The position numbers and the translations under genes were made by a program. Positions 4,763 to 64,000 of a stretch of DNA of 64,000 nucleotides are shown here, piece after piece. The notes under the pieces are model-generated. The model did no database searches. It was given only the letters and a program-made list of their open reading frames with translations, and had not been told where the DNA came from. This DNA comes from Nyssa sinensis (taxonomy: Eukaryota; Streptophyta; Magnoliopsida; Cornales; Nyssaceae). The stretch's first letter is position 1. Each line of letters begins with the position of its first letter. The DNA lies in the NCBI GenBank assembly GCA_008638375.1, contig CM018040.1, forward strand, positions 32,365,970 to 32,429,969, given 5' to 3'.

Positions 4763-7700
4763 AGTGAGCTAAAGAACATCTTAGAAGCTTGGAGAAAGGT
4801 TTAGAAGATAAAAGAAAAATTAAGAAAGATGAAAGAGAATTAGTGTTGCATGAAATTATGCAGTTGTTCTCCATATATATATATATATAAATAAAAATAA
4901 AAACAATGAAATGATGGAGGAAGAGCGGTAGCCATGTGATGAGAGAGAAGCAGTGGCCATGCAACCGAAAGGTGTTCTCCATGCAAAAGTGGAAGCCAAC
5001 AGGTGGCAATGTCACCGCCTTCAAGGTTAGTTTAAAAGAGAAATTAGGGAAGATAGAAAGTGAGTAATGCGTAGAGGAATTTAGAGAGTGAGAGAAGGAA
5101 GCTGAGGCGCTGAGAAAGTGAAGAAATGAGGGAAATTCTGGGAAAGTTTTGAAAGGTGGAAACTCGGCTTTAAACAGGTATACTTTCGGTTGAATTATGT
5201 TCAATTATGTTTTAGATTTAAAGCATGCAAATACAGGGTCTTAATCTACATGTTTTAAGCTTTAGTTTGCAAAAATAATGAATGAAAATCGTGTAAGGTT
5301 GAGTGAGAAATTTGGGATTACAGTTGAACAAAAAAATTTGGAACTGTTAATGCAAGTCTGAAATTATTGGAACCAAACCAAGTTTGGCCTATTGGAACCT
5401 AAACTAGGCCATCCCAATGTCTTAAAAACACTAGACCGCGACCCTAAATCTCAAAGAATGAGCCCTAAAACCTGAGTTGCAGTTTTCGGTCATAAACCCA
5501 GCCCTTGTTTTAAACTCCTAAACCCGCTTTTGAGAATAGGGATTGAACCCCCATGTCATGAAGGTCACGTTGAACCAAACCCCACTAGAAATGGTGATGA
5601 AATAAGGGTTTATTATGGAGTTACAGGTTCAGGTATCAAGTCTTAGACTGAACGTTTAGGTTAGTTTTAAGGTTTCAAATGAATGCCAAAAGATTGGCCA
5701 AACCCCTAGGAATGCATATCACCCAAGAACAGAGGAAATCAGTGATTAAAAACGCATGAATTGGAAGAAATGAAACCCAGAAATTAGGGCAACAGTAACC
5801 TTAGGTGATGAAGAAGACGACGAGTCAACTGAGTCGCCCAACTCGCTCAACCTAGTCGTGTCGACTCGGACAGGTGTCAGCTTGCGGGTTAGCCACTACA
5901 TTATTGGAATGGCACCGTTTGAAGTCGTTTTGTTTCTTTTAAATACAAATTCTGGCCTGTTTGGATATGAGCACAATAAATTGAAATCAGGATTCGATTA
6001 ACCCAAAATACGGATAAGGGTCAAATTAAAAGTAACCAGGACATGTTATCCCGGTTCAGTGAGAGTAAACTGAACCGGTTGGTTCAGTAAAGGCTTGGAC
6101 CGGTTTAAGGTTTTGTCTAGTGAGCCCACTTGTTCAAACCGGAAGTTAGGAAAATTATAAATTGACCCCTGACGCTGTGAAAAATCACAGTAAGGGCCAA
6201 CAGTAATAAATTAAATATTTAATTAATAAAATTTAAATAGAAAAAATGTCTAAAATACCCCTAATTCAAAAATGGGTCAAATGAAGTCCAAATAAAATAA
6301 ACGAATAGTGTATTTTAACTATTTTGGACATTTTGAACCCAATGGTGAAATCTTTTTCTTGAGACGAGACTCCAAAAAATTAAGACGCGTTAAAGTATAA
6401 ATGACCAAATTACCCCAGTGCCCCTAACGTCAAATGGAAGTCCGAGAGGATCTAAATTGACTTTCTTCGATGTTCTGGACTTAATGGTGAGGTCCATATT
6501 ATGAAATGAAGTACGAAAAAATATGAACGAAGCTACCTTAAGAGTATAACGCCTAAAATTAAAAATTAGGATTTAATACGATTTAGGCATAAGTTAAGAG
6601 CATCAATAAGAGATATTGAAGTGATTAAGAAGTTAATAAACTCTTTATCTATTGTTCTTAGGAACTACAAAAGAAAGGGAAAGGCACATCAATAACGCCA
6701 ACCCAGAAGTATAAGGTGAGTAACCCTACATTTGAAGAAGTTTTAAATTCAAAATATGTGAAGTGTTTGAATAGCAAATTCAGTGTTTACATGATTCTTG
6801 TTTCAAGTACTTCCGTTCTTACAAATCCTATTGTGACATGCTCAGTGAAATGATTTCTATTATAGCTTCATTTTAAAATATATTCCAACATGTCTAAGTT
6901 TTAAATGTCGTACGTTGTTAAATATTTTGAATTTGCATGTTCCAAGTATTTGAAGATTCTATCATGAAGTCATGAATTTTATGTTTAGAATACTCATGAA
7001 AAGTATCTATTTGAAGAAGCTATCTGTTAAATGTATTTGAATGTAAGATAAACAGTGCATAAGCACATAGACAGGATTTTGGGTTTCTTCGAAGTTCAAC
7101 TGACCTGTCAAAATAGATATGATTTTGGGTTCTTCAGAATTCAATTGACCTGTCAAATGCCAGGTAGCAGGATCTAATCTCCCCGAGCATATGAGATATC
7201 TCCACGTAAAATAAAACGGGAATCTGGTTCGAAATGGATTCTATTAATGAAAGTGATAAGGTGTGTGTTGAAAATGGAAGCAAGTTTTACCCTTATTTTC
7301 ACCATGCATATTTACATGTTTTGAAGTTCATATATTTTATGTGAAGAAGTACAGGTTTAGCTTGAATACTTTAAATGTTTCAAAGCTAATTGTTTTAAAG
7401 GAATATATATATTCTGTATTCGAAAGTATACGAGCAATTGGCAGTGAGTATTTTTATAAACTCTCATGTGTTAAACTACTACCAATTGAAACCCAATGAA
7501 AAATGCTAGAATTACTCACAAGCTTAGTTTAGCTTACCCGAATTTTATCCGTCCCCCTTTCAGGTGACCGTCGGCAGTCTTGATTTTGGTGATAATGATG
7601 ATAAGTCTGACCGTTTGGGAGGAATGTTTAAATAGTTTCTTTGTGAAAACCTATGAACCTTTAATGGTAAATTTTGTATTAGAAGACAGTGCACAGTTAT

Positions 7701-19783: not shown

Positions 19784-19799
19784 GACTGTGAATAGAATC

Positions 19800-19960: not shown

Positions 19961-19972
19961 GCTCTGATACCA
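19961..19972 (-). promoter_or_regulatory. Primer binding site of element A (initiator tRNA-Met)
   Basis: The minus strand reads TGGTATCAGAGC, three bases inside the right LTR that begins at 19976. Confidence 0.95.
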
Positions 19973-29602: not shown

Positions 29603-31831
29603 AAATTTGTCACGACCCGAAACCCACCTTGTGCCGATCTTAAATCGCGACCGTCACCCTTCGACCCAGGGGCGAAATCGTGAAAAACTTTTTCTTTTCT
29701 TTTTCTTCTTTTAAATTTTTTGCACATCCGCCCGGTACTGCCACTCTTCAAAGCGGTACACATGATTATACATTCAGAGCATAATAAAAATTTTAAGACT
29801 TTATAATCAATACATGTTCAGTTGTCCCTCAGGACTTAGTTACATAACATTTAAATATCTTCTATAACAAAAGTGACTTACTATAAGTCCTTAGTGCTTC
29901 CCAAAAACTGCTAGTCCTGTAAGGAGCTTCCTACACCCTTCCTCAAAATGGGAAAGCTCTAACCATCTTCATCATCAAAAGTTAGGATTTCTTTCAGTTA
30001 CCTGCAATGTAGGTCAGATAAATCCATGTAAGTTAAACTAAGCTTGTGAGTAATTCCAGCATTTGTCATGGGTTTTCAATTGGCAGTGGTTAGTATAAGA
30101 GATTTTATAAAACATTCACTCCCAATTACTCGTATACTTCAAATATAGAATATAGGAATTCTTTTAAACAGATAGCTTTGAAACATTCAAGGTATTCAAG
30201 CTAAACATGTACTTCTTCAAATAAAGTATAGGAAATTTCAAAACACGTAACACGAAGCAATTTAAAGCATTCGAGTAAAATAAATATTTCATGTATACAA
30301 AGTGTAAGAATCTTCAAAATATATAACACGGGTGTTTAAAGCACTCGAGTGGGATATGCAATATGCAATGTAAACTTGTAAACATGTATATGATGGCCAA
30401 TGTGACCAAAAGAGTTTAAATCTTTTGCTTCTCAATAGGATGAATAAAAATCTTTCTTGTTGTAAACATGAGGGTATGACCCTTTATTTTAAAACTGGCT
30501 CATTTCCTTTAAAACAAATACTTCTTCATGTGAAAAGGGTTTGAAAAACCTTCTGCCATTTCTTATGAAAACAATGAAAACTTTAGTTCATGAAATCAAC
30601 ATATATAATACATTTAGGAATGGAGGGATAAACCTGCTACCATTTCTAAATGTCTCATCTTTTCACTTTGATTGGGTGGAAATCTGTTTCGAACCAGATT
30701 CCAGTCTTACTTCCTATGGAGAATTCTCATGAATGGGGGATTAGATCCTGCTACCTAACATTTTACATGTCAATTGAGTTCCGAAGAACCCGAAATCAAT
30801 CTTAGTGCTTATGCACGCTTTATCTTGCATTACCAGTGGCAATAGGAGGCATATAAAACATTTATAAATAGATGCTATTTAAAACATTAAGACATGACCT
30901 CCCTATAGTTGCATTTAAATACATTTAATACATGACTTCTTCAAATAGATGCTTTTATGAGCATTCAAAACATGATGTTCATGACTTCATGATAGAGTCT
31001 TCAAATACTTGAAATATACAAATTCAGAATATTTAAAGAGATTTGGCATTTTAAACTTAGACATGCTGAAACATTTTTTTTAAGAAAAGCTATAGTAGAA
31101 ACCATTCACTGAGCATGTCACAATAGGGTTTATAAGAACAGAAATACCTTAAAACAAGGATCAAGTAAATACTGAATTTGATATTCAAATGCTTCAGATA
31201 TTTTGAACTTAAAACTTCTTCAATCCATGGAGTTAAATCTCCACTTCAAATACGGGATTACTCATCTTTGTCCATAAGGTCAATGCTACTAATGCGCTTT
31301 TCCTTTTTCCCTGTAGTTCCTAAGAACAAATATAAAGAGTTTATTAACTTCATATTCACTTCAAATATCACATATTAATGCTCTTAACTTATGTTTAGAT
31401 CCTAATTTTTATCTTATGTTTTTATACCTTTTAAGTATACTCTTCTGGTAGCTTCTTTATATCTTTGGGTCATTTTTGTAATTTTATGTATTTACGCTTC
31501 ATATTTTTCTGTACTTTATTTCATAATATGCACCTCACCATTGAGTCCAGAACGTTGGAAAAAGTCAACTCGACCCTCTCGGACTTCTATTTGGCTTTAG
31601 GGGCACTAAAGGCAAAATGGTCATTTTACATATTTACATGTCTTTATTTTTTTGGAGTCTCATCACGTAAAATGAACTTCACCATTAGTGTTAAAATGTT
31701 CCTTACGTAAAGAAAAAACTATTGACTTGTCCAATTTGGACATCGGAGATTTTCTTAAATAAATAACTAATTAAATTTATTTAATTGATTAATTATATAT
31801 TATTTTCATATATGTGCACACGTGGTTGGCA

Positions 31832-42289: not shown

Positions 42290-42915
42290 GATATGCCTTG
42301 TCCTGATTGATATTGTTCCGCTTTGTTCCGACATGTTCAGTTCCGATATGTCTTGTTCTGATTGATGTATTGTTCAGTTCCGATATGCCTTGATCTGATT
42401 GATATTGTACCGTTTTGTTCCGACTTGTTCAGTTCCGATATGTCTTGATCTGATTGATATTGTACCGTTTTGTTCCGACTTGTTCAGTTCCGATATGCCT
42501 TGATCTGATTGATATTGTACCGTTTTGTTCTGACTTGTTCAGTTCCGATATGTCTTGATCTGATTGATATTGTACCGTTTTGTTCCGACTTGTTCAGTTC
42601 CGATACGACTGGATCTGATTGATATTGTACCGTTTTGTTCCGACTTGTTCAGTTCCGATATGTCTTGATCTGATTGATATTGTACCGTTTTGTTCCGACT
42701 TGTTCAGTTCCGATATGCCTTGATCTGATTGATATTGTACCGTTTTGTTCCGACTTGTTCAGTTCCGATATGTCTTGATCTGATTGATATTGTACCGTTT
42801 TGTTCCGACTTGTTCAGTTCCGATACGACTTGATCTGATTGATATTGTACCGTTTGTTTCCGTCATGTTCAGTTCCGATATGACTTGTCCTGATTGATAT
42901 TGTTCCGTTTTGTTC
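42290..42915 (+). repeat. 55-bp minisatellite in LTR C2
   Basis: About nine to ten head-to-tail copies of a 55-base unit (core GATTGATATTGTACCGTTTT then CCGACTTGTTCAGTTCCGAT), several almost identical. The same place in C1 holds only loosely related, irregular TCCGTTATG/TTGATTGATAT repeats. The array lies between putative donor GTGAGT (about 42177) and acceptor (about 43743). The 159-codon minus-strand frame across 42759-43238 is a repeat artefact. Confidence 0.93.
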
Positions 42916-44245
42916 CGTCCGTTATGATCTATCCGTTTCATGGTCTGTCCGTTACTGATATGTCCTTGTTTTGACTGACGTATTGTTCCGCTTGGTTCTG
43001 TTATATCCCGACCGTTAATGATCTGTCTGTCTTGATTGTTTACCTGTGACTTGAACTGGTGTTTTGCTCCGTCTGATTCCGTTATGTTCCGTCCGTTAAT
43101 GATTTGTCCGTCTTGATTGATATATGGTCCAGTTCCGTTATGATCTGTCCGGATTCTTGACTTGGTATATAAGTTACTGCCTAGATACTGTATTTTGATG
43201 CACTGTACGGTTTTAAAAGTTATACTGTCTGAATGCATGTTTTTAAATGCAAACTTTTATACTGTATTGTACGCGGCATGATTTTGTCCCATCCTACTAT
43301 TGTTATGTTCGGTCTGTCTTGTCCCGTTTTATGGTCTGTCTGATTTTGTTCTGCTATGATGTGTCTGACTCTGGGTACCATTCTGATAATGAGCGGTCTG
43401 GCATAAGTAGGCTTGATTATGTGCCTAACTGATATATTGTTTGTTATGCCCTGTTATATTCCGCCCAGTACTGACCTGTTCTAATATTGAATTAATTGCC
43501 TATACTCTCGATTAATATATTGGCATCATGCACTGTTCCTTCCGTCCTGATTTGTTGTTCTGTTTAGTTCAGTCCCGTTTTATTCTACTTAAACTGTATT
43601 CGAGTAGATTTATAAAACTGTTATTCCTAAGCGATTGAACTATCCTCGTGATTTATAAACAAGACCGGGTTTGAAACCCATGACAGGGAACCTGTGTTAC
43701 TCACTGGGCTTTTCGAAGCTCACCCCATTCCCTAACATTTTTTAGGGATTATCTCTGGTGATTTAGAAGACACCATGATATGACATGATAGGCCGAGTGG
43801 CACTTCAAGTAAAGGATCTGACGGCACTGATCTGTAGAGACTGGATTCTTGTGGACTGATTCTGTTATTCAGGTGAGTGATATGATACGGCTAACCTGAT
43901 TTACATGTACTGGATGGATAATTATGGCTCATGGAAATAAACGGTACTCTAAAGATATTAGATCTGCTCTGTACTATATGCCTGATTTTAGATATGCTCT
44001 GAACTTAGAACTGTTAACTGTTTTGGATTTAGACTTGCTCTGTGGTACATACCTTTATGGTGGATAAGTGAGTTGCATTCCCGTGACACAAAGAAAAAGT
44101 TTTAAATTCCGCTGCATCTGACCCTACAGTTGGAATGCAATTCGTCGGAAAGTTCAGAATTTGCCTTTGGTTGGTCGCGTCGCGACCGACTGGCAGTCAC
44201 GTCCTCGACATCCGCGTAGGGTGGGGTTCGGGATGTGACACAGCC

Positions 44246-44510: not shown

Positions 44511-45838
44511 TGTCACGACCCGAAACCCACCCTATGCGGATTACCGGATCGCGACCGCCACCCTTTGGCCCGGAGGCCTTAGGGCAAGGTTCGTACATAA
44601 GCAACAATATCAGACAGTGATGCGACCTGTGGTTGCGGAAGCGTGAAAATTTTTTTTCTTTTCCTTTAAAAATAAAACATCTGTCGCATATCCGCCTGAT
44701 ACTGCCACTCTTCATAGCGGCACACATAAATATAATAATCAGAGCATAATAATAATAACTAAAGGTTCTACATAGTACATATCCATGTGCCCCTCGGGCT
44801 TAAGTACATAATTGTCCAAAAATTTCAACTACAAAAGCTTAACCAGTGATGGGTCCTAATACTACCAAAATATCTCCAAGAACCTACTGGAGTTGCCATT
44901 CATTGCTCCCCAAATTGAGCAAGTGTCCAACCTTGATCATCACCTGAAAAATGTTGGGGAATGGGGTGAGCTTCGAAAAGCCCAATGAGTAATTCCTACA
45001 TCTGTCATAGGTTTTCAATTGGTAGAGGTTTCGCACATGAGAGTTTATAAAATACTCAACTACCAATTGGTCATATACTTGAACATAGAGAACATGCATT
45101 CTTAAAATATATAGCTTTGAAACATTCAAGGTATTCAAGCTAGAACAAATATTTCCATAAAAGAGTATGTGTATTTCAGAACATGTAACTTAAAATCATG
45201 TAAACATGCATAGCGAAAATGGGGGTAAAACCTGCTTCCATTTCCAAAATCGTTTGTCATATTCTCTCTCTGATTAGGTGGAATCTGTTTCGAACCAGAC
45301 TCCCATTTTACGTATACGTGGAGATATCTCATTACCTGTGGGATTAAATCCTGCTACCAGGCATTACACATGACAGGTCAATTGAGTTCCGTATAACCCA
45401 AAATCCTGACTATGTGTTGATGCACACGATAGGCCCATTGAGTTCCGTACAACCCAAGACCTACCTATGTGCTTATTATTATCTTGTAAAACATTTGTCA
45501 TATGACTTCTTCATATTGATACTTTTCATGAGTATTTAAAACATGTAACGTATAACTTTTGCAATGATGCTTCAATACTTGTAATAATCAAATTCAGAAT
45601 ATTTGAGGAAATCAGACATGCTAACTATTTTGAAGAGGAAACATTTACGAATATAAATATGTAAATAATCGTGGAGCATGTCATAGCATAATGTTTAAGA
45701 AAACAAAAATCATGAATACTGAATTTGATATACCAATGCTGTAAATATCTTGAACTTAAAAACATCCGTTGAAATCCGTGGAGTTAAAGCCTCCACTTCA
45801 AATGCAAGATTACTCACCTTGGTCCTTTAGGGTTAGCT

Positions 45839-46315
45839 TTACAGAGGCGCCTTCCCTTTACCCTTCTCCCTCCTTAGCCTATCAAGATTTATGAAGATTC
45901 CATAAATTCTATATGTGCTTAATCAACTTCATAACTCACCAATTGTAGACTGTGAAAAGCCTAAATTCCTATACTGGTCCGACTTATAGCTGTATTATAG
46001 ATCTAGCAACTTATGTACTTAATGATAATAATATTACCTGCGACGCCATTCGGCTAAGGTTTCCGTGTTCTCTCTTTCCTCTTCCATTTTTCTTTTTTCC
46101 TCATTCTTTTTCTTAGCCTCTGCCACCATTGCCTTGGTGGGTGATTTGTGAATGAAGGGGCTCACCGAGACGACCTCCGTCACCTTGGCTATCCTGACGA
46201 ACCTGCCAATCACTCTCTGACGATGTAACAGTTCTTGCATGAAGGCCTGTTGTTTTGGGTCCTTAGCCCTTTGGGCCTTGGTCATGATCGTGAACTTCAG
46301 TCGTTGTTCTTCCAT
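45839..46315 (-). CDS. LTR-encoded small protein, two coding exons (copy 1, intact)
   Basis: I do not recognise this protein. Within the left LTR of element B, exon 46315-46038 and exon 45878-45839 join across a 159-bp intron (CAG|GTAATA ... TTGATAG|G) to give 105 residues. Start ATG 46315 lies 10 bases after an acceptor, GATCTTAG. The N-terminal half has DPKQQAF, RFVRIAK and VSPFI motifs; the C-terminal half is a Lys/Glu-rich likely coiled coil (EKRKMEEERE) followed by TETLAEW and a basic tail KGKGKAPL. No signal peptide or membrane segment. Three relatives are in the window: 61078-61554 (one stop), 63635-63978 (cut by an insertion) and the diverged intronless 49440-49724. Splicing is inferred from the match of the joined tail to the intronless relative. 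Function unknown; nuclear or RNA/chromatin-associated roles would be guesses. Confidence 0.6.
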
Positions 46316-47422
46316 AATTATCACCTAAGATCAATTTATGAGTTAGAAATTTTATTCTAAGGTTGATGTGTTGTCGTGTCTTTTCGTAATTCCTGTCCTC
46401 GTTTACGCCGTAGATTAGTACGTTGGCATTACTTTAGTTTATAACATCTGACAGATGCTATTCATCAAATTTTATGTATTTTTATTTTAGACATTTATTT
46501 TGGTCGAATAGACTCTACCATTGAGTCCGGAGCATCGAAGAAAGTCAGTTTAGGCTTTCTTAGAATTTAATTCGGCATAGGACATGTTAGGGGCATTTTG
46601 GTAATTTATACCTTAACGTGTCTAAATTTTTTAGAGTCCCACCTCATGAAACGGAATCTACCATTAGATTCAGAATGTTTGAAATAGTTAAAATCCACTA
46701 TTTATTTATTTTATTTGGACATCGTTTGACTTATTTATGGGGCAGGGGCATTTTGGTCATTTTGACATTTTTAGGGGTCTTTAATTTTTTGGAACCTCAT
46801 CTCATGTTTTGGACCTCACCAATGGACTCAGGGGGTCCGAGATAGTAAGTTTTCATATATAACTCATCTCATTTGGACACCGGGCCATTTTAGAGTATTT
46901 AATTTAATTAAATATATTTAATTAAATTAAATTAATAAAGTATGATATATATATATATATTGTAATATCCCGACCCGGGATACCGGGTCACATGACACGT
47001 ACTACGAGGGAAGAAAATCATATATATATAATTAATTGATTATTACATTAATTAATTAATTATAAGACTTGATATATATATATATGGATTAATTTAATGT
47101 ATGTAAATGAATATATATATATGTATTAAATAAATGAAATATGAAAAAGATGAAAAGTGAAGAGGTGAACAATGTGAATGTGTGTGTGTGTGTCGGCAAA
47201 TGTGTGTGTGTGTGTGTCTTGTATATGTATGTGTATATGTATATATATGTATATAATATGTATAAATATCTATGGGAAATTAATGCAAAGTAGGAAAGAG
47301 AGAAGGCTGAAATTATGAGATGGGAAGTCTATGTAGGGCTAGAATTCAGAATGCAGAGAGAGAGAAAGATAGCTGTAGAGAGAGAGAGAGATGGGAGGAG
47401 TGAGAAGAGTCGGTCACTTCTC

Positions 47423-47429
47423 TATAAAG
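47423..47429 (+). promoter_or_regulatory. TATA box of LTR H
   Basis: TATAAAG in CTCTATAAAGGC, about 110 bases before the first donor, preceded by GA-repeats. This is the clearest core-promoter motif among the LTRs. The transcription start would be near 47455. Confidence 0.55.
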
Positions 47430-48362
47430 GCTAAGCATGTAAATCATGCTTTCTTCTTGCTAAAGAAACCAAAAGAACAATAACTGAAGAGAAGAGAAGA
47501 AGGATTAAGGCAAGAAAGAGGAGGAAAATCAACCAAAAAGGTGAGAGTGTTCAAAACTGTCAAAATTCCCTCTCTAGAATTTCTCTACATATGAACTGAT
47601 TTAAAGCTTCCATTTTGTATATATGATGTTTAGAACAAGTCTAAACCTTAACAAGCATGAAAATATAGCTTAAAAACACCTAAGATTGCATGACCCATAA
47701 GCCACGGCCATGGATGGACCTTGCTCAAGCAGGTCTGATCGAAGGGAAACCAAACTTGGTTTGGTGTATAGGGACCTATTTTAGACCACATAAACATGTT
47801 AAAAACGTGTGACCGCGACCAAAAAGCATGAACAAAGGCCCTCAAATGTCAAGTTGCAGGTTTCGGGTCTACACCCCAAACCTCTAAACGCATGATTTAA
47901 GCCGTTTATTTAAATGAAAACTTGATCTCCATGAAGAGGGGATCACAACAAGCCAAACCTCATAACAAATGGTCAAGAAACGAGTATGAACCGAGGCTAT
48001 TACAGGTTCAGCTATCAAGTCCAAAACCGAACATGTGAAGGAGTTTTAAAGCTCAAAATCAATGCCAATCGATTTGTATGAACCTTAAGGATAAATTGGG
48101 ACAAAAACAGTCGAGCTTGGAAGAGTAAAACGTCACGAAATAGGAGAAAAAGGAAATCGGGAATTAGGGTTTTCAGTCGGTCGCTCGGGGAAGACGACCG
48201 AGTCGACTCGTGCACTGTTTAAAACAGTGGGTGGACTCGGGACAGTGGCAGCCTTGGGGCTTGCCACCGAGTTATTGGAACGGCGCCGTTTAGGGGCGTA
48301 TACGGTTATATATAAACCGTGTTGTAAAAAAATAAGAGAAAGGAAGCAAATCGTGGCTAAGG

Positions 48363-48416
48363 GGTTTCGATCCCTAACCCTCGCGCGTGGGAAGTCTCCT
48401 CCTTTCCACTCGGCCA
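48363..48416 (-). other. tRNA-like module 1 in LTR H (antisense)
   Basis: Minus strand TGGCCGAGTGG (A box, 48406-48416) and GGATCGAAACC (B-like, 48363-48373), 32 bases apart. The same A box, spacing and orientation relative to the LTR occur at 51244-51297 and 60209-60261. Confidence 0.55.
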
Positions 48417-48507
48417 CGCGCTCACATGTGTCCATTTATAAACACGATATATATATATATTATAATGTATATATTACGGAAATAAAAAAGGTGCAGCCGC
48501 ACCTGGT

Positions 48508-48562
48508 GGGACTCGATCCTGTGATGTATGGGGAGGGAGATGGCACGCTGGCCAGCGTGCCA
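48508..48562 (-). other. tRNA-like module 2 in LTR H, with 26-bp palindrome
   Basis: B-box-like GGATCGAGTCCC (48508-48519) on the minus strand; the A-box position is occupied by a perfect 26-bp palindrome, 48539-48564, centred on GCTGGCCAGC. Homologous pieces are at 51098-51152 (20-bp palindrome) and 60352-60405 (16 bp). Confidence 0.55.
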
Positions 48563-49439
48563 TCCTATTCAACCTATTCTCTTTTCCCCATTAATAATAT
48601 ATATATTACATGTTATAATTAATTTAATTAAATTTGATTAATTAAATTAATTACTCCGAAATGGCCCGTTGTCCAAAAATTACAAGTTATATATGTAACC
48701 TTACTATCTTGGACCCCCTAAGCCCATTGGTGAGGTCCACAACATGAGATGAGGTCCCGAAAAATTTAAGACCCCTAGAAAATGTCAAAATGACCAAAAT
48801 GCCCTTGCCCCATAAACAAGTCAAACAAAGTCCAAATTTAATAAATGAATAGTGTATCCTTACTATTTCGGATATTCTGAGACTAATGGTAGGGTCCGTT
48901 TTACGAGACGGAGCCCGAAAAATAAAGTCACGTAAGGGGTAAATTACCAAAATACCCCTTGACCAAAATTGACAAATTATTAATGTATTCTTACTATTTT
49001 GGACCTTCTGAGTCCAATGGTGAGGTCCACGACATGAGACGGGGTCCCGAAAAATAAAGACACGTAAGGAGGGTAAAATGACAAAAATACCCCTGGTACC
49101 CCTAAAGCCAAAATGAAATCAGAAAAGGTCTAAACCGACTTTCTTAAACACTTCGGACTCAATGGTAGAGTCTATTCGACCTAAAGAAATGTCTAAAATA
49201 AAAAGACATAAAATTTGATGAATAGCATCTGTTAGATGACTATGAACTGAATTGTTGCCAAAGGACTAAACTGAGGCAAATACGAGAAATGAAATACGAT
49301 AAGACACGACACGTAAACATGTTAAGTAAATAACTTTAAATTAAAAGTTAATGGAACTCCCAGAAGAGTATGATTGTAGAAATCTATTTTTCTTGACATG
49401 ATAAATTGTGTTTTAAACAGATAATTAATTAAACACAAA

Positions 49440-49724
49440 ATGAGCCAAGAAAAGGAAGTCACTCCTATGAAGACAAGGGCCCAATTGGCAAGTGACCCAA
49501 GACAGCAAGCTTTCCGGGAACAGCTAGAAAGACAACTTCAGCTGATTCAAAATCGTATCCGAATTTCTAAAACAAATGAAGTATGCTGCGTAAGCCCCTT
49601 TATTTACAAGACAATAACAAAGGAGCAATTAGCAGCTAAACAGCTTAAGAAACGGGAAGATACGGAAACATTGCAGCAATGGCTTCAAAGGCTAAAGGAA
49701 GCCAGGGGCAAAGCACCCAAATAG
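49440..49724 (+). CDS. LTR-encoded small protein, intronless relative (LTR H)
   Basis: Unrecognised 94-residue frame that lines up with the spliced protein of element B from its first residue: MSQEKEVTPMKTRAQ against MEEQRLKFTIMTKAQ, then DPRQQAF, RIRISK, NEV, CVSPFIYK, TETLQQW and RGKAPK. It is shorter in the charged middle. Where copy 1 has its 159-bp intron, this copy reads straight through (CAAAG then GCTAAAG), so the intron is missing exactly. ATG 49440 lies 19 bases after acceptor TTTTAAACAG, and donor AAG|GTGAGT follows the stop by 20 bases. The frame is open although the sequence is diverged at many sites, which suggests selection at some time. Confidence 0.6.
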   Translation: MSQEKEVTPMKTRAQLASDPRQQAFREQLERQLQLIQNRIRISKTNEVCCVSPFIYKTITKEQLAAKQLKKREDTETLQQWLQRLKEARGKAPK

Positions 49725-51032
49725 AACAAGACTAAAAGTACAAGGTGAGTAACCCTGTATTTGAATTGGAGATTTAACTCCATGATTTAAAAAGAGTTTT
49801 AAGTATAAGATATGAAGTATTTGAAGTTTCAAATTCAGTATTTACATGATTCAGTTTTTAATTGTTCTGTTTTAGAAATTCATTGTGACATGCTTAGTGA
49901 TTGGTTTCTGCAACAGTTTTTCCTTCAAATACTTTTTAGCATGTCTAGTTAAAATGCAATTATTGTTAAATATTCTGAATTTGTTTATTTCAAGTATACG
50001 AATGTTTATTACGAAATTATGAAAAGCATCTATAAGACAAGTCACATGATAAATGTTTTACAAGATAAATGGTGCATAAGCACTTAGACAGGATTCTGAG
50101 TTTTCAGTTGCCCTGTAAAATAGGCAGGATTTTGGGTTTTACGGAACTCAATTGCCCTGTAAAATGCCCGGTAGCAGGATCTAATCCCTCAGGCAGATGA
50201 GATATCTCCATAGATAAGTAATATGGGACTCCGGTTCGAAACGGATTCCACTAATGGAAGTGATAAGACGACAAATGATTTGAAAGTGGAAGCAAGTTTT
50301 TACTCTCATTTTCATTATGCATATGATGAGTTTTATATACTCTATTTAAGAAATACATGATATGTTATATGTTTTAAAGTTCACATGTATAAGTTTAGCT
50401 TGAATGTTTTAAATATTTCACAGCTACATGTTTTAAGGAATGCATATATCTTGTATTCAATTATATGAACAATTGGCGGTGACTATTTTACGAACTCTTA
50501 TGTACTAAACCACTGCCAATTGAAAAACACCATGACGAATACTGGAATTGCTCACAAGCTTAGATTAGCTTACCCGGACTTTGTTCGGACCCCCCCTTTC
50601 AGGTAATTAGCAGCAGTTTGGATTTAAGGACGATGATGACAAGTCTGCTGATTTTGGGAGGACATGGTTAATTAGTCTCTTTTGATAAGTCTGTAAACTC
50701 TAATAGTACTTTTATATTAGTAGACATAGTAAGGTAATGTAATAAGCCCTCTGGGAAAATCGGTTATGTATGGTATGAATGTATGAAGTCTTTAAGTTTT
50801 TAGTTATACTCTGAATGTGTAACCATGTATGCTATGTATGGAGCGGCAGTACCGAACGGATGTGCATAATTTAAAAATGATAAAAGAAAAGAAAAAGTTT
50901 TTCACGCTTCCGCAAAACGTATGTTGCACATTTATTCGATACCGCTGCATATGCGAGCCTTGTCTCGGGGCCCTCGGGTCTCGGGGCGGCGATCGCGATC
51001 CGGTAATCCGCTTAGGGTGGGTTTCGGGTCGT

Positions 51033-51069
<37 letters not shown>

Positions 51070-51097
51070 TGTGCAATAAGTCACAGGTCGAATAGGG

Positions 51098-51152
51098 TGG
51101 CACGCTGGCCAGCGTGCCGCCTCCTTCCCAAAAGACACCACGTTCGAATCCC
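51098..51152 (+). other. tRNA-like module 2 in left LTR of B (antisense)
   Basis: TGGCACGCTGGCC, part of a 20-bp perfect palindrome (51099-51118), then GTTCGAATCCC (B box, 51142-51152) 31 bases on. Confidence 0.5.
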
Positions 51153-51243
51153 AATAGGTGCAGTCGCACCTTTTTATTTTTCTGATTTCATTTATATATT
51201 ATATATATATATATGCTGCCATAATAAGACACGTGCAGGTGCG

Positions 51244-51297
51244 TGGCCGAGTGGAAAGGAGTTGGGTTTACGCGCGTGAGGATGGGGGTTCAAGTCC
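51244..51297 (+). other. tRNA-like module 1 in left LTR of B (antisense)
   Basis: TGGCCGAGTGG (51244-51254) and GGTTCAAGTCC (51287-51297), 32 bases apart. Both boxes match the Pol III consensus, of the Ser/Leu tRNA type. A full cloverleaf is not evident. Confidence 0.6.
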
Positions 51298-52683
51298 CAG
51301 GGGCTTCGGCCCCTTTTATTTTTCCTTGTTTTCGTAAACCAAACGGCGGACAAGGGTATTAAACCGGAATAAGCCATGCCATTCGCGCCTAGTTTATTGA
51401 ATTTGGACCATAACCGTATAACCAAACAAGGCAATTCAGGGTTTTAAACCCTTAAACCAAAACGACGTCGCCTCATTAATTCGGTGGCAGCTTTAAACGT
51501 TGCCACGCGTCCGAGTCAACACGGTCAGGGCTTTTAAAACCGAGTCGACCCACCATCGTCTTCCTCGTTCGACCCCTATTGTTGCCCTAATTCCCGTCTT
51601 CCTTTTTCTTTAATTTCGTGAGTTTTGGGTTGTTCAAACCCTACTATTTTTAACTCAATTGATTTCTAGGACACTAAGGATCCACCTGCATTCGTTTTAG
51701 GGTTTGAAATGGTCCAACGAGCTCGGGAAGGGGGTCGATAATTCCCACCTGCAACTGGTTGGTAAACCTTTGTTTCTTCACTATTTTTAGCGTGGTTTGG
51801 TTCTGTGTGACCCCCAAGTTAATGGGATTCAACCGCCATTCTCAGAAAAAGGTTTAATGGTCAATTTTTAATATGGGTCATCAAGACCCAAAGCTGCAAC
51901 TAGACTTTTGAGGGTCATTTATCTAAGTTTTTGGTCGTGTGTTGGGTTTATTAGAACCCTCATGGTCTCTACTTTAAGTCTTGGTAAACCAAGTTGGGTT
52001 TGGAAGAAGTCGGTTCAGACCTGCTTCAAGCAAGGTCTTCAATGGCTGCCTTGTGTACGGCTGATGTTTCTAAGGTGTTTTAGGTTGAAATCTCATGCTT
52101 ATCATTGTTTAAACATGCTATAAACATTATATACACTAAATCAAGGCTTAAAACAGTTCATACGTATGGAAATTCTAGAGAGAGAAATTCAAGTGTTTTG
52201 TGGGTTTACCTTGTTCCAAACTGTTTCTCTCCCCTTTGCTCCTTGCTTCCCACTTCTGAACGTCCTAGAATCTCCTTCAATCTCTCCCTCACTCTCGGAT
52301 GGTTGTGTGTGTGTGTGTACAAGCACCATGCATATGTGTATATAGAGATGTGAATCATGGCAATTCTGATTGCCCTTCTACTTGGGTTAGCCAAATTCAG
52401 GTTCTCTTCATGAGTGGTCTGAATTGCCACTGTTTGGCAGGCCATTGAGTGGCCGGTTATATGTGTGTGTGGTGTTTGACTTGTATTTTACTTACATATA
52501 TATATATATATATATGCATGGTTCAACCCTAATACACCTTGGATAATACACACACTCACTTTTGTACACTTTGGACAATAGCATGCTCTCTTATTCCATA
52601 CATACATTTCACATATACATATTTTAACATACATGCATGCATGCATACACACACACTCATATATATATACATTCATGTATAAT

Positions 52684-52714
<31 letters not shown>

Positions 52715-52895
52715 TTAAAGTTACAATTATTCATATAGTATATATTTTTGCATTTAATTATATATATTAGTTGTTACAATTTATTTCTTATATTTAAAAA
52801 TTAATTATTTTCTTAAATGTATCATCTTTGTACTAATCTTCGTATCCTCGTAATACGTGTCACATTACCCGACATTCTCGGGTCGGGGTATTACA

Positions 52896-53040: not shown

Positions 53041-54149
53041 TTAAAACTTTCGTAGTGTACCTAATTGATCATCAGGGGTTTGTGTTGTACCAGCAAATAT
53101 ATTATATACTCGCCCGTACCTCATGGGTTCCTTGTTCCCTCCAGGTTTCCCCGTATTTGTGGTCGGTGGTTGTGGGGTGGCCGATGATGCTACTGCGGTA
53201 GGCTCCTTAGCATTTGAATTCAACGTTGGGCAATCCTTGATGCGATGCCCAGCCAGTCCGCATTTATAACAGACTCCTGTTCCTTGTCGGCAAGGTGCGA
53301 AATGCTTCTTTTGGCATGTCGGGCAGGTAGGAATGTCCACTGTCTTTTGGCCAGTGCTACTACCTTCATTGACAGATGTCGCGCTCTTGGCCCCAGTCTT
53401 TGTCTTTTTCATTTGTTGAGGGTTGGGGCTAAATTGTTTCTTATCTTTCTTTTGGGATAAGGCAATCCCAACTCTCTCAAAAATTTTAGCGCGATCCACC
53501 ACTGCAATATACGTGGGAAGTTCGAAAGGTTCGAGTCGATATCTTATGCCGTCCCTCAAGCCACTTTCAAACTTCCTAGCCTTTAGGTCTTCAGTTTGAA
53601 CCATGTGGGGTGCGAACCGAGCTAACTTCATAAACTTGGTTTCATACTCGGCCACAGTCATTGTCCCCTGAGTTAGGATTGCAAATTCCGCAATCTTTTG
53701 ATTCTTTAATGACCTTGGAAAGTACTTATCATAAAATACCTCCAAGAACCTAGTCCAGGTCATCGGGGGTTCTCTCTCTTTTTCCAGAAGCCACCATTCA
53801 TGAACTGCATCTTTAAAAGTAAAAGCAGCAAAAGAGACCTTTTGTTCTTCAGTGCATGGCATAACCGTGAAAATACGTTCCATTCCTTGACCCAAGTTTC
53901 AGCGTCAATGGTGGTGTCAAGTCCGTCAAACCTGGGAGGTTTGAAACCTTGAAACGTTTTATAATTCGCCGTGTTTATAGCATCCGTAGGTTGTCCCAGA
54001 TTTTGTGGTGGTCCGGGATTTTGCACCGGTTGTGGTGCTCTACTTTGTGTTTGGATGTCGATCATGTTCCGAGCCATTGCCTCTAAAATATGTTCGACTC
54101 GATCTAATCAGTCATCCGAATTTCCCGTATTCCTTCTCGTGTTCACCAT
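53041..54149 (-). pseudogene. gag: Gag of element B, nonsense codon and frameshift, pol missing
   Basis: Gag would form the virus-like particle that packages element RNA. The frame opens MVNTRRNTGNSDD at 54149, hits TGA at 54108-54110, and continues as LDRVEHILEAMARN. Near 53890 a single base is missing (AETWV then QGMERIF in another frame). After that it stays open through the capsid region ([19 protein letters not shown]) to a CCHC knuckle CYKCGLAGHRIKDC and ends shortly after GRVYNIFAG, where protease should begin. Instead, about 150 bases later comes the polypurine tract. All of pol is therefore deleted. Gag is clearly related to, but distinct from, that of element A. Confidence 0.9.
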
Positions 54150-54315: not shown

Positions 54316-54460
54316 CCTACGGGTCCCATACCCCGCCTTCTTATCGTATACGTATTTCTAATAACTTACTTACTCTAGTGCAGGTCTCATACCCTGCCCT
54401 TACATTACATTACATATCACGTATCTTTACATATCTTATTCATAAACTGCGAGTCCCATA
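54316..54460 (-). repeat. Hairpin-repeat leader of element B, part 1
   Basis: Three units between gag and the nested LTR A3. Dyads on the plus strand: ACGGG-TCCCATAC-CCCGC, GCAGG-TCTCATAC-CCTGC, and GCGAG-TCCCATA cut by the insertion of LTR A3 (its other arm, CTCGC, is at 57764-57768). Same family as the leader array of element D. Confidence 0.8.
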
Positions 54461-57400: not shown

Positions 57401-57758
57401 GATGACGCTGCGAGACCCCAGTAGGAGTCTGAGAGCGTAGGGGGACATTTTGAAGTACTGTATCAGTCTATGATAGTTCTCCCATGTATTCACCACCCCC
57501 GGGTGCTGGTTACATTTAGTTCTCATTTTGTTTTATGTAGAACTAAGTCATGTATTTAATAGACTTCTGCTGTGTAATTTATTTAAAAAGACTTCCGCTG
57601 GATTACTGTAATTGATAAAGACTTCCGCTGTTCATTGTTTAAAATTTTTAGTACATTTGCATATTAGTACTATGATACAGGAATGGAAAAAGTAGGGACG
57701 GCCTTCGGGTCGGCCCCGCGACACGAGATCTGCATAGGGTGGATTTCGGGTCGTGACA
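54461..57758 (+). mobile_element. Solo LTR A3 (A type, 3298 bp) in leader of B
   Basis: Starts TGTGATATCCCGACCCGGG (G for A at base 4), ends GATTTCGGGTCGTGACA, flanked by CCATA at 54456-54460 and 57759-57763. Plus-sense signals: GA-repeat, TATA-like TTTATATATATG near 55167, donor AA|GTAAGT (55320), acceptor GATATATAG (ends 56544), a 56-base exon, donor AA|GTAAGT (56601), acceptor CATTTCAG (ends 57398) and the tail. These match the left LTR of element A position by position. Confidence 0.93.
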
Positions 57759-57995: not shown

Positions 57996-60208
57996 CTCTG
58001 TCACGACCCGAAACCCACCCTATGCGGATTACCGGATCGCGACCGCCACCCTTCGGCCCGGAGGCCTTGGGGCAAGGCTCGTACATAAGCAACAATATCA
58101 GATAGTGATGCGACCTGTGGTTGCGGAAGCGTGAAAAAAAATTTTCTTTTCTTTTAAACATAAAACATCTGTCGCATATCCGCCTGATACTGCCACTCTT
58201 CATAGTGGCACACATAAATATAATAATCAGAGAATAATAATAATAACTAAAGGTTCTACATAGTACATATCCATGTGCCCCTCGGGCTTAAGTACATAAT
58301 TGTCTAAAAATTTCAACTACAAAAGCTTAACCAGTGATGGGTCCTAATACTACCAAAATATCTCCAAGAACCTACTGGAGTTGCCATTCATGGCTCCCCA
58401 AATTGAGCAAGTGTCCAACCTTGATCATCACCTGAAAAATGTTGGGGAATGGGGTGAGCTTCGAAAAGCCCAATGAGTAATTCCTACATCTGTCATGGGT
58501 TTTCAATTGGTAGAGGTTTCGCACATGAGAGTTTATAAAATACTCAACTACCAATTGGTCATATACTTGAACATAGAGAACATGCATTCTTAAAATATGT
58601 AGCTTTGAAACATTCAAGGTATTCAAGCTAGAACATATATTTCCATAAAAGAGTATGTGTATTGTAATACCCCGACCCGAGAATGTCGGGTAATGTGACA
58701 CGTATTACGAGGATACGAAGATTAGTACCAAGATGATACATTTAAGAAAATAATTAATTTTTAAAGTAATTAATTATTTTAAATATAAGAAGTAAATTGT
58801 AACAACTAATATATATAATTAAATGCAAAAATATATACTATATAAATGATTATAACCTTAAATATATATATAATTATACATGAATATATATATATATGAG
58901 TGTGTGTATGCATGCATGCATGTATGTTAAAATATGTATATATGAAATGTATATATATTATATATGGAATAAGAGGGCATGCTATTGTCCAAAGTGTACA
59001 AAAGAGAGTGTGTGTCAAAGAGAGGTGTGTGTATTATCCAAGGTGTATTAGGGTTAAACCATGTATATATACATATATATATATGTAAGTCAAACACCAC
59101 ACACACACACAACCGGCCACTCAATGGCCTGCCAAACAGTGGCAATTCAGACCCACTCATGAAGAAGCCTGAAATTGGCTAACCCAAGTAGAGGGGCAAT
59201 CAGATTTGCCATGATTCACCTTTCTTTATACAAGTATGCATGGTGCTTGTACACACACACACACAACCATCCGAGAGTGAAGGAGAGTTTGAAGGAGATT
59301 CTAGGACATTCAGAAGTGAGAAGCAAGGAGCAAAGGAGAGAGAAACAGTTTGGAACAAGGTAAACCCACAAAACACTTGAATTTCTCTCTCTAGAATTTT
59401 TATACGTATGAATCTGTTTTAGCCTTTGATTTAGTATATATGATGATTAAAATGAATATACATGAACTAGGCATGATTAATTGACTCTAAGACACATCAG
59501 AAACACAAACCGTACACCAAACCGCCATTGTTGAGCTTGGTGAGAGCAGGTCTGAACCAACTTTCCCCAAACCCAATTTGGCCGATCAAGACTTCAAGTA
59601 GATCTCACAAGCATCCCAAAAACATACGTACGCGATCAAAAATCATAAGAAATGGCCCCCAACCATCGACTTGCAGGTTACGGGTTTACAACCCAAACCT
59701 TTAAACTCTCATCTAAATCAACAAATAGGAATGGGAATTGAATCCTCATGAAGATGGGATCAAAATAAGCCCAACCTCACTAAAAATGATGAAAAAACGA
59801 GCATGAACCAACGATTTACAGGTTCGGATTATCGTGGTTTGAACCAAGCTTTTGAGCTACATTCGAATCTCCAAATGAATGCAAACATAATCCTTCATGT
59901 CCTAGAAATGATTTGGAGAAGAAACAGTAAGAAAATAGTTGGCCAAAATCCACGAAATAGAAAAAAATGAAACGCAGAAATTAGGGCAACAGGGGGGTGA
60001 TCATGGGGAAGACGACCGAGTCGACTCACGACTCGCTTGAAATGAGCAGGGGAGACTCGGACACGTGTCGAGCTATGGACCTGCCACCGAATTAAAACGA
60101 CGGCGTCGTTTTGGGCCTATTACGTATATATATATATATAGATAGATATATATATATATATATAACGGTTTGAGTTTAAAAGAAAAGAGGAGAAACTCAC
60201 GGTCAGTG

Positions 60209-60261
60209 GGGTTCGAACCCCTGACCTCACGCGCCCCACATGTTTCCTTTCCACTCGGCCA
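60209..60261 (-). other. tRNA-like module 1 in LTR B2 (antisense)
   Basis: Minus strand TGGCCGAGTGG (60251-60261) and GGGTTCGAACC (60209-60219), 31 bases apart; a perfect B box and a good A box. Homologous to 51244-51297 and 48363-48416. Confidence 0.6.
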
Positions 60262-60351
60262 CGCATGCGCGTGTGTCTCATATGGGGCAACATATTTATA
60301 TATAATACATATAAAATAAAACCGAAAATAAAAAGGTGCATTGCACCTGGT

Positions 60352-60405
60352 GGGACTCGAACTCGGGTATATGGGGAGGGAGGTGACACGCTGGCCAGCG
60401 TGCCA
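60352..60405 (-). other. tRNA-like module 2 in LTR B2 (antisense)
   Basis: GAGTTCGAGTCCC (60352-60364) with TGGCACGCTGGCC (60393-60405) on the minus strand. The palindrome here is reduced to 16 bp (60387-60402) by one change. Confidence 0.5.
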
Positions 60406-61077
60406 CCCTATTCAACCTGTCACTTATTCCCCTTTGAAAATATATATACTACATTTATAATTTAATTTAATTAAATGAAATTAATTAAATTAAATACTCC
60501 GAAATGGCCCGTTGTCCAAAAATTACATGTTATATATGTAACCTTACTATCTTGGACCCTCTGAGCCCATTGGTGAGGTCCTCGACATGAGATGAGGTCC
60601 CGAAAAATTAAAGACCCCTAAAAATGTCAAAATGACCAAAATGCCCCTGACCCATAAATAAGTCAAACAAAGTCCAAATTAAATAAATGAATAGTGTATC
60701 CTTACTATTTCGGATATTCTGAAGCCAATGGTAGGGTCCGTTTCATGAGGCAGTACTCTGAAAAAATTAGACACGTTAAGGTATAAATTACCAAAATACC
60801 CCTAACATGTCTTAAGCCGAATTAAATTCTAAGAAAGCCTAAACTGACTTTCTTGGACACTCCGGACTCAATGGTAGAGTCCATTCGATCAAAAGAAATG
60901 TCTAAAATAAAAAGACATAAAATTTGATGAATAGAATCTGTCAAATGACTATAAATTGAGGTAATGCCAACGTACTAATCTACGACGTATGCAAGGACGT
61001 GAATTACGAAAAGACACGACAACACACCAACCTTAGAATAGAATTTCTAACTCATAAATTGATCTTAGGTGATAATT

Positions 61078-61554
61078 ATGGAAGAACAACGACCAAAGTT
61101 CACGATCATGACCAAGGCCCAAAGGGCTAAGGACCCAAAACAATAGGCCTTCATGCAAGAACTGTTGCATCGTCAGAGAGTGATTGACAGGTTCGTCAGG
61201 ATAGCCAAGGCGACAGAAGTCATCTCGGTGAGACCCTTCATTTTCAAATCACCCACCAAGGCAATGGTGGCAGAGGCTAAGAAAAAGAAGGAGGAAAAAA
61301 GGAAAATAGAGGAGGAAAGAGAGAACACGGAAACCTTAGCCGAATGGTGTCGCAGGTAATATTATTATCATTAAGTACATAAGTTGCTAGATCTATAATA
61401 CAGCTATAAGTCGGACCGGTATAAGAATTTAGGCTTCTCACAGTCTACACTTAGTGAGTTATGAAGTTGATTTAACACATATGAAATTTATGGAATCTTC
61501 ATAAATCTTGATAGGCTAAGGAAAGAGAAAGGTAAAGGGAAGGCGCCTCTGTAG
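61078..61554 (+). pseudogene. LTR-encoded small protein (copy 2, one stop codon)
   Basis: Same two-exon gene as at 45839-46315, in LTR B2. Exon 61078-61355 (278 bases) and exon 61515-61554 (40 bases) flank an intron of 159 bases; all three lengths equal those of copy 1. Codon 23 is TAG (61144-61146) where copy 1 has CAG (DPKQ*AF). Otherwise open, with mostly single-residue differences (for example VISVRPFIF for VVSVSPFIH). An internal ATG at 61153 could give a 68-codon remnant. Preceded by acceptor GATCTTAG (61068). Confidence 0.65.
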
Positions 61555-63634
61555 AGCTAACCCTAAAGGACCGAAGTGAGTAACCCTGTATTTGAAGTGG
61601 AGATTTAACTCCATGGATTTGAAAAGGTTTTAAATGCAAAGATATGAAGAGTTTGAAATTCGGAATTCAGTATTTACATGATTCAGTTTTAAATTGTTCT
61701 ATTTTATAAACTCTATTATGGCATGCTTAGTGAAAGGATTTACCATAGTTTTCTTCAAACATATTTCAGCATGTCTAAAGTTTTAAATGCCAAATTATGT
61801 AAAGTGTTCTGAATTTGTTATATCAAATGTTTAAAGGATTTGTTATGAAATTATGTACATGATGTTTTAAATGTTCATGAGAAGCACCTATTTGAAGGAA
61901 ATCATGTATTAAATGTTATGTTTTAAAGTACCCACGAGAAATATCTATTTGACATGCTCATATGTTAAATGTATTTGAAATGCAAGATAAATAATAAGCA
62001 CATAGGTAGTGAGGAGGGTTGTATGGAACCCAACGGACCTATCATGTGCATTATCACATAGGTAGTGAGGAGGGTTGTACGAAACCCAACGGACCTATCA
62101 AGTGAAATGCCCGGTAGCAGGATCTAATCCCCCAGGCAAATGAGATATCTCCACGTATACGAAAAATGGGAGTCTGGTTCGAAACAGATTCCACCTAATT
62201 AAAGAGAAAATATGACAAACGATTTTGGGAATGGAAGCAGGTTTTACCCCCATTTTCACGATGCATGTTTATATGATTTTAAGATACACGTTCTGAAATA
62301 CATATGCTCTTTTATGGAAATATATGTTCTAGCTTGAATACCTTGAATGTTTCAAAGCTACATATTTCAAGAAAGCATATTCTCTATGTTCAAGTATACG
62401 ACCAATTGGTAGTTGAGTATTTTATAAACTCTCATGTACGAAACCTTTACCAATTGAAAACCCATGACAGATGTAGGAATTACTCATTGGGCTTTTCGAA
62501 GCTCACCCCATTCCCCAACATTTTTCAAGTGATGATCAAGGTTGGACACTTGCTCAATATGGGGAGCAATGATTGGCAGCTCTAGTAGGATCTGGAGTTA
62601 TTTTGGAAGTTTAGGACCCTTCATTAGTTAAACTTTTGTAGTTGAAACTTTTGGACAATTATGTACTTAAGCCCGAGGGGCACTTGGATATGTATTATGT
62701 AAAAATCTTTAGTTAATATTATTATGCTCTGATTATTATATTTATGTGTACCGCTATGAAGAGTGGCAGTATCAGGCGGATATGCGACAGATGTTTATTT
62801 TTAAAAGAAAAGAAAAGCAAAAAAGTTTTTCACGCTTCCGTAACCACAGGTCGCATCGCTGTCTGATATTGTTGCTTATGTACGAGCCTTGTCCCGAGGC
62901 CTTCGGATCTCGGGGCGGCGATCGCGATCCGGTAATCCGCGTAGGGTGGGTTTCGGGTCGTGACATGTATTTTAGAACATGTAACTTAAAATCATGTAAA
63001 CATGCATAGAGAAAATGGGGGTAAAACCTGCTTCCATTTCCAAAATCGTATGTCATATTCTCTCTCTGATTAGGTGGAATTTGTTTCGAACCAGACTCCC
63101 ATTTTACGTATACGTGGAGATATCTCATTACCTGTGGGATTAAATCCTGCTACCAGGCATTACACATGACAGGTCAATTGAGTTCCGTATAACCCAAAAT
63201 CCTGACTATGTGTTGATGCACACGATAGGCCCATTGAGTTCCGTACAACCCAAGACCTACCTATGTGCTTATTATTATCTTGTAAAACATTTGTCATATG
63301 ACTTCTTCATATTGATACTTTTCAAGAGTATTTAAAACATGTAACGTATAACTTTTGCAATGATGCTTCAATACTTGTAATAATCAAATTCAGAATATTT
63401 GAGGAAATCAGACATGCTAACTATTTTGAAGAGGAAACATTTACGAATATAAATATGTAAATAATCGTGGAGCATGTCATAGCATAATGTTTAAGAAAAC
63501 AGAAATCATGAATACTGAATTTGATATACCAATGCTGTAAATATCTTGAACTTAAAAACATCCGTTGAAATCCGTGGAGTTAAAGCCTCCATTTCAAATG
63601 CAAGATTACTCACCTTGGTCCTTTAGGGTTAGCT

Positions 63635-63978
63635 TTACAGAGGCGCCTTCCCTTTACCCTTCTCCCTCCTTAGCCTATCAAGATTTATGAAGATTCCATA
63701 AATTCTATATGTGCTTAATCAACTTCATAACTCACCAATTGTAGACTGTGAAAAGCCTAAATTCCTATACTGGTCCGACTTATAGCTGTATTATAGATCT
63801 AGCAACTTATGTACTTAATGATAATAATATTACCTGCGACGCCATTCGGCTAAGGTTTCCGTGTTCTCTCTTTCCTCTTCCATTTTTCTTTTTTCCTCCT
63901 TCTTTTTCTTAGCCTCTGCCACCATTGCCTTGGTGGGTGATTTGTGAATGAAGGGGCTCACCAAGACGACCTCCGTCG
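63635..63978 (-). pseudogene. LTR-encoded small protein (copy 3, cut by an LTR insertion)
   Basis: In the right LTR of element B. The last exon (63674-63635), a 159-bp intron (63833-63675) and the 3' part of the first coding exon (63978-63834) are present and match copy 1 almost exactly. The reading frame stops at 63978, where a new plus-oriented LTR start (TGTAATATCCCTACCC) is inserted. The remainder should resume beyond the window. Confidence 0.7.
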
Positions 63979-64000
63979 TGTAATATCCCTACCCGGGATA
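63979..64000 (+). mobile_element. Start of another LTR at window edge
   Basis: TGTAATATCCCTACCCGGGA matches the A/H-type LTR start with one change and interrupts the LTR of element B. Only 22 bases are visible. Confidence 0.75.

Follow-up and report, generated by a model that had tools for sequence, protein, structure and literature searches.

On balance, we think that the LTRs of one group of gypsy elements carry a real, spliced, protein-coding accessory gene. That the frame codes for a protein and has been under selection is, in our judgement, highly probable, and that it is spliced is probable too. A selected, spliced coding frame is supported because the protein is kept where synonymous sites are saturated and because the intron is precisely absent in one diverged copy. 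The original prediction spoke of an LTR-encoded accessory protein: the frame, its splicing and its selection have gained support, and the accessory role is carried forward as a proposal.

Nested elements and the copies of the frame

The window, by which we mean the whole stretch of 64,000 nucleotides that was analysed, is packed with nested gypsy elements of plant type, and the family that bears the frame looks like plant gypsy retrotransposons. The frame lies in sense orientation within the LTRs of one element, X, and within two solo LTRs, S and H, that are inserted in X (Table 1). In fact, this is much as originally predicted: the same frame around a 159-nt GT..AG intron, twice in X (once partially) and once in S; one full copy open over 105 codons, which is X-left with its 278 and 40 nt joined; and a fourth, diverged copy of 94 residues in H, with all four inside LTRs. 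The S copy has a TAG at codon 23 (61144-61146) as its sole stop, so that two of the three full-length copies, X-left and H, are open. X-right is partial because LTR-like sequence begins at about 63979; this further sequence breaks the X 5' LTR a second time.

Element X has LTRs of about 4.3 kb bounded by TG..CA, and its LTR pieces are 97.4 and 99.1% identical in self-comparison. Three bases past the edge of its 5' LTR (57999) is a primer-site-like TGGTATCAGAGC, which we take to be the initiator tRNA-Met primer site, pairing with that tRNA, and the purine tract AAGGAGGGAATAA adjoins the edge of the 3' LTR (52895). With its gypsy-type gag, X thus has the features of a gypsy element. The gag frame starts at TTG in the ORF list and its start coordinate is provisional; its end and the 3' LTR are about 145 nt apart, and therefore pol is missing behind gag. 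Non-autonomous elements with LTRs, a primer site, a purine tract and gag without pol are known as TR-GAG elements, and X has just this composition. Both solo LTRs are flanked by a duplication, that of H being weak because TATAT sits inside an AT repeat. Given this nesting, and the high identity of the X LTR pieces, H has probably transposed not long ago, carrying an open gene.

The X gag resembles that of another element, E1. At the end of E1 pol, a match to Chromo, the domain that would mark a chromovirus such as Tekay, stays below threshold (21.4 against a cut-off of 25.1 bits), and in self-comparison part of the X internal region (about 54460-57758) resembles the LTR and the 3' part of E1. 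E1 itself occupies 11855-21923, with LTRs 98.9% identical over 1948 bases and a minus-strand gag-pol divided into four open pieces. A CBM_20 starch-binding domain (E 1.1e-15) marks 11143-11823 (+) as probably an exon of a host gene.

Two further, diverged LTRs, K6 and K31, hold an in-frame stretch that resembles exon 2, preceded in both by TTCTTAG, the AG being displaced 6 nt inward relative to the X acceptor. The likeness of K6 was seen in a multiple alignment; for K31, a blastn match with S covers exon 2 and about 36 nt of the intron (61479 onwards). Exon 1 was not found in K6 or K31 by alignment and sequence comparison, and such LTRs can therefore do without it.

Table 1. Positions in the window of element X, the solo LTRs, the copies of the frame and the related signals.
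Feature	Position	Strand	Basis or remarks
X 3' LTR	44511..52895	-	self-comparison, termini, purine tract; split by solo LTR H (46961-51036)
X 5' LTR	57999..64000 (from 57999 upward)	-	self-comparison, termini; split by S at 58663; runs past window end
Solo LTR H	46961..51036	+	self-comparison, termini; within X 3' LTR; TATAT duplication
Solo LTR S	58663..62965	+	self-comparison, termini; within X 5' LTR; 5-bp duplication TGTAT
X gag frame	53041..53895	-	Retrotrans_gag, E 1.1e-16; CCHC knuckle
X-left exon 1	46038..46315	-	278 nt; ATG at 46315
X-left intron	45879..46037	-	159 nt; GT..AG
X-left exon 2	45839..45878	-	40 nt including stop; proposed extension to 45818, ahead of donor 45817
X splice-like chain	44943..46324	-	acceptor 46324, donor 46037, acceptor 45878, donor 45817, acceptor 44943; candidate sites from sequence signals
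S copy	61078..61554	+	exon 1 61078-61355, intron 61356-61514, exon 2 61515-61554
X-right partial copy	63635..63978	-	last ~145 nt of exon 1, intron, exon 2
H copy	49440..49724	+	intronless; 94 codons (49440-49721), then TAG
K6 exon-2-like stretch	6657..6695	+	in frame: LRNYKRKGKAHQ, then stop
K31 exon-2-like stretch	31286..31324	-	LRNYREKGKAH; two stops

These LTRs hold other recurrent sequences as well. A unit of about 142 bp is found at 24074-24467, 40933-41323, 33348-33594, 6282-6531, 48957-49064 and 60668-60775; it is tandem in several LTR-like regions and also lies upstream of the gene in S and H. Another tandem array, with a 55-bp unit, occupies 42290-43119 and is adjoined by a 159-codon open frame (-) at 42759-43238. 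Antisense stretches that resemble tRNA occur at 60200-60370 in S and 48350-48530 in H, with the motifs GGGTTCGAACCCC (60209), CACTCGGCCACGC (60252 and 48407) and GGTGGGACTCGA (60349 and 48505); they are probably derived from SINEs, and neither ARAGORN nor Rfam called a tRNA or Rfam element. When the 3' halves of the LTRs of S, X, H, K6 and K31 are aligned, a common block appears, GGTAGCAGGATCTAATC...TCTGGTTCGAAACAGATTCC, with a box-B-like GGTTCGAA, and by eye the block containing the latter is among the best kept parts common to the five LTRs.

Conservation of the predicted protein

Our statements on selection concern the three full-length copies in the window, of which X and S are close relatives. 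The distant pair, X and H, is the most telling. Over 94 codons (Nei-Gojobori) pS is 0.83, which is saturated, and pN 0.37, with 37/36/58 differences by codon position; 41 of the 94 residues are identical, and two gaps of 27 and 9 nt are needed in the alignment at the DNA level. The protein alignment scores 176, whereas none of 500 codon shuffles exceeds 41.5. Codon-shuffled H also gives a pS above pN (0.86/0.56), and the excess of pS is therefore weak evidence by itself. The other five frames of the alignment have 5-13 stops each: the two shifted frames lose the pattern of conservation (9-13 stops), and the opposite strand has 5-12 stops, with a pS of 0.70, a pN of 0.38 and 5 stops in the frame whose third positions coincide.

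We compared this signal with the rest of the window in a self-comparison that yielded 913 translated segments of at least 40 aa, 55 of which passed a filter of at most two stops, pN > 0.05 and pS > 1.7 pN. Among these 55, a pS of at least 0.75 with at most one stop is reached by pol (0.85/0.25), gag (0.91/0.30) and the X-H gene pair (0.80/0.39, 60 aa) alone; two further segments, one antisense to pol and one from a tandem repeat, also have a pS of at least 0.75 but contain two stops. The S-H gene pair is absent from the 55 filtered segments. In a tblastx of H against S, with segments of at least 28 aa considered, the gene appears as a segment of 73 aa with one stop, pS 0.75 and pN 0.40, and no other segment as long has as few stops together with a pS this high. 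Some AT-rich segments at 47.1-47.3 kb, shorter at 43-54 aa and with 0-1 stops, are similar in pS (0.74-0.81) but have a pN of 0.43-0.49, and none of the other candidate coding segments of the LTR in this comparison is as clear as the gene. At about 100 codons the frame is short, and K and E abound in its C-terminal part, as might befit a frame open by chance; the protein alignment of X and H, its score beside those of the shuffles, the stops in the other frames and the control over the window all contradict that origin, which we reject as extremely improbable.

The close pair is less one-sided. Between X and S (104 codons, the S stop codon left out), 8 of 64.7 synonymous and 11 of 247.3 non-synonymous sites differ, giving an omega of 0.34 (Fisher p 0.035). 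Counted by nucleotide, 9/159 positions differ in the intron, 17/278 in exon 1 and 4/40 in exon 2, and the flanks differ more (73/637 and 215/1322). Thus the exons are kept no better than the intron, unlike what strong constraint on the exons alone would give. Between X-left and X-right there are three differences, all in exon 1 and one of them at the cut edge. For these reasons we read the present copies as no longer mattering individually. The original prediction also held that the gene might persist independently in solo LTRs; with the stop in S, the exon 1 changes between X-left and X-right, and an X-S intron no more diverged than the exons, we keep this only as a possibility.

The same observations raise the question of decay, in which the frame would have been functional in ancestral elements and would be a relic in present ones. 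The stop in S, the exon 1 differences within X and the lack of a detected exon 1 in K6 and K31 all fit such a course, but X-left and H are fully open at a distance where synonymous changes are saturated, and the X into which H inserted is young. In addition, when X was left to evolve neutrally in a simulation (5000 runs, no indels, an approximate model), the fraction of open frames fell to 0.061, 0.022 and 0.012 at 0.29, 0.5 and 0.8 substitutions per site. A gene that is only now decaying is, in our view, improbable.

Splice-like signals, gene cassette and proposed role

Three features go beyond the original prediction: H is intronless at the same site, splice-like signals stand on both sides of the frame, and the gene and the LTR around it are discordant. 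Where X reads AATGGCGTCGCAG, then GT...AG, then GCTAAGG, H reads AATGGCTTCAAAG followed directly by GCTAAAGG, so that the predicted intron is absent exactly. The simplest history that we infer is an old intron that would have been lost in H; gain of an intron in the X/S line is possible. The GC content of the X exons is 0.49 and 0.55, against 0.30 in the intron.

Splice sites were ranked with approximate weights, over 44511-46960 for X and over the whole solo LTR for S. The coding donor ranks 2/127 in X (46037) and 1/215 in S; the predicted coding acceptor, at 21/146 in X (45878) and 27/265 in S, scores as middling in both. Outside the frame, the ATG is preceded by a candidate acceptor, at a distance of 9 nt in X (46324, rank 10/146) and S (61069, 12/265) and of 19 nt in H (49421, 6/263). 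About 20 nt past the stop, X, S and H share a GTGAGT donor that is also present in K6 and reads ATGAGT in K31; it ranks 1/127 in X (45817), 2/223 in H and 24/215 in S. A candidate far acceptor follows some 860-950 bp on, at 44943 in X (1/146), 50603 in H (3/263) and 62530 in S (93/265), and some sites score both ways, H 50603 being also the best donor. Because there are splice-like signals on both sides of the frame, they suggest that its exons may be internal exons of a longer LTR transcript. With the stop about 20 nt from the last junction, such a transcript would be spared nonsense-mediated decay under its usual 50-nt rule.

Signals of this kind could also belong to a functional, non-coding, multi-exon LTR leader, in which they would be kept for RNA processing and the frame would be a by-product. 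Such a leader would suit K6, where splice-like signals surround exon 2 without an exon 1, and it would suit an X-S intron as conserved as the exons; it does not account for the similarity of X and H at the protein level when synonymous sites are saturated, nor for the stops in all five other frames, and we regard it as very improbable.

The discordance emerges when identity between S and H is followed along the LTR. Upstream it is 278/301 at 60440-60740 and 218/280 at 60741-61021, falling to 30/56 just before the ATG; it is 134/248 in exon 1 and 22/37 in exon 2, then 119/144 at 61555-61700 and 123/195 at 61701-61900. The gene is thus 54-59% identical, against 63-92% for most of the surrounding LTR, and the dip is centred on the gene, with a second drop further downstream. 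Likewise, the dN of the gene (about 0.5) exceeds the divergence of the flanks (85/581, 157/484 and 35/176 sites). The gene and the LTR backbone therefore lack one common history: cassette and backbone seem to have had different ones. From the sequence comparison we take this to mean that LTR families have exchanged the cassette, for which recombination of co-packaged RNAs would be the simplest route.

A host gene, or gene family, might instead have been captured by the LTR, perhaps twice, with its intron in X and S and as a processed copy in H; selection would then have conserved the host genes, with the copies in LTRs carried along as passengers. This would explain why S and H differ more in the gene than in most of the adjoining LTR, and why one copy type has an intron that the other lacks; moreover, captured genes in plant LTR elements are described in the excerpt of PMC7264820. 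Against capture, both copy types stand at the same LTR position in the same sense, the exon-2-like stretch recurs at the same place in K6 and K31, the copies in X and H are both open even though the insertion of H is the later one, and no host relative appeared in the collections searched, which appear to hold few plants. Overall, capture of a host gene strikes us as unlikely.

The product, with 105 (X) and 94 (H) residues and pI values of 10.5 and 10.0, would probably be a small, basic, helical protein. Its structure model for H is weak, with helices predicted at 13-17, 20-39, 61-74 and 78-90, and is too poor for a fold search because the mean pLDDT is 61.8. Searches gave 5 and 10 candidates in a protein collection, none at E up to 1, no matches among PDB sequences, and 83 pattern matches in viral contigs, none confirmed; these collections appear to hold few plants, and therefore the lack of relatives says little on the novelty of the family. 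A Pfam scan gave no family above cut-off for the gene. The best Pfam match of H, DUF6887 (E 0.003), scores 18.2 bits against a cut-off of 24.2 and was not taken as homology.

To explain these results we propose that the LTR promoter would yield a short spliced transcript, in which the frame exons would be internal and the stop codon would stand about 20 nt ahead of the next donor. The resulting protein, of about 11-12.5 kDa, small, basic and helical, would aid the element in trans. We are inclined to accept that it helps the element, with moderate confidence; its likeliest activities would be to bind nucleic acid in the handling of element RNA or to counteract silencing, a choice of roles that is itself rather doubtful. 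Selection would act between transpositions, on source elements rather than on each dead copy. Reverse transcription of spliced RNA would have removed the intron from H, and the cassette would have been swapped between LTR families as set out above.

A wider reading, which we offer tentatively, is that a class of plant retrotransposons may carry an intron-bearing, regulatory LTR gene swapped as a cassette between LTR families. Each insertion would then bring two gene copies, a solo LTR would amount to a gene complete in itself, promoter and terminator included, and non-autonomous, even solo, LTRs would supply a trans-acting, perhaps anti-silencing, protein.

Relation to known systems

In the excerpts of the literature cited here, plant LTRs are treated as regulatory and non-coding, and surveys of additional ORFs covered internal regions or long frames. 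The survey in PMC6317226, as excerpted, counted ORFs of at least 250 codons and would therefore have missed a frame of about 100 aa. Among the matches listed from the open-licence literature we recognised no gene inside a plant LTR; listed matches worded as 'LTR ORF' or 'LTRs encode' concerned fungi, insects, fish or mammals, and the 'gene within the LTR' of a grass paper is a host gene within an LTR retrotransposon. A small spliced LTR gene would change the meaning of a solo LTR: since the protein is kept while the DNA has changed, a lone LTR may still be a gene copy. Elements with large LTRs and gag-only elements would gain a possible helper protein, and LTRs with and without the intron would serve as a marker of splicing followed by reverse transcription.

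For the action of such a protein, VANC of VANDAL offers a model, as an element-encoded accessory protein that acts on the element's own silencing (PMC12844716, in excerpt). We use it as a functional model alone: VANDALs are DNA transposons, and relation in sequence was checked by the Pfam scan alone. Spliced plant retrotransposon transcripts that make distinct proteins are likewise described in excerpts of PMC6317226 and PMC7730604, where the intron of Ogre lies between gag-pro and the remainder of pol, and the spliced isoforms of sunflower concern gag. In our case the intron, by predicted splicing, divides the LTR gene itself.

The nearest analogue is sag of MMTV, also a gene within an LTR: sag is located mostly in U3, and LTRs do not ordinarily code for protein (PMC4667437, in excerpt). 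The LTR frame differs in that it has no superantigen match in Pfam, and its host differs, as presumably does its role. TATA-like motifs are many in our LTR, and the frame could be placed in U3 or in R.

Among plants, the comparison is with the aORFs, namely the Tekay 5'aORF, ORF0 of Retrosat2, RIRE3 and RIRE8, gene23 of Grande and the env-like frame of Athila, which also provide an extra protein beyond gag-pol in many copies. As far as the excerpts go, Tekay 5'aORF proteins are predicted to be nuclear in both sunflower and grasses, with about 400 aa in sunflower (PMC11728184), Retrosat2 ORF0 lies upstream of gag-pol (PMC3485330), and plant additional ORFs are internal, or upstream or downstream of gag-pol (PMC7264820, PMC3485330, PMC6317226), PMC7264820 treating them as internal. 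None of the aORF domains that PMC6317226 names, PF10536, PF04195 and PF03078, appeared for our gene in the Pfam scan up to E 10. The LTR frame shares with the aORFs that it is conserved beyond gag-pol in several copies (X, S and H), but instead of an internal place 5' or 3' of gag-pol it sits inside the LTR, with about 100 aa and an intron. Being inside the LTR, it is therefore present in two copies per element, and in solo LTRs as well.
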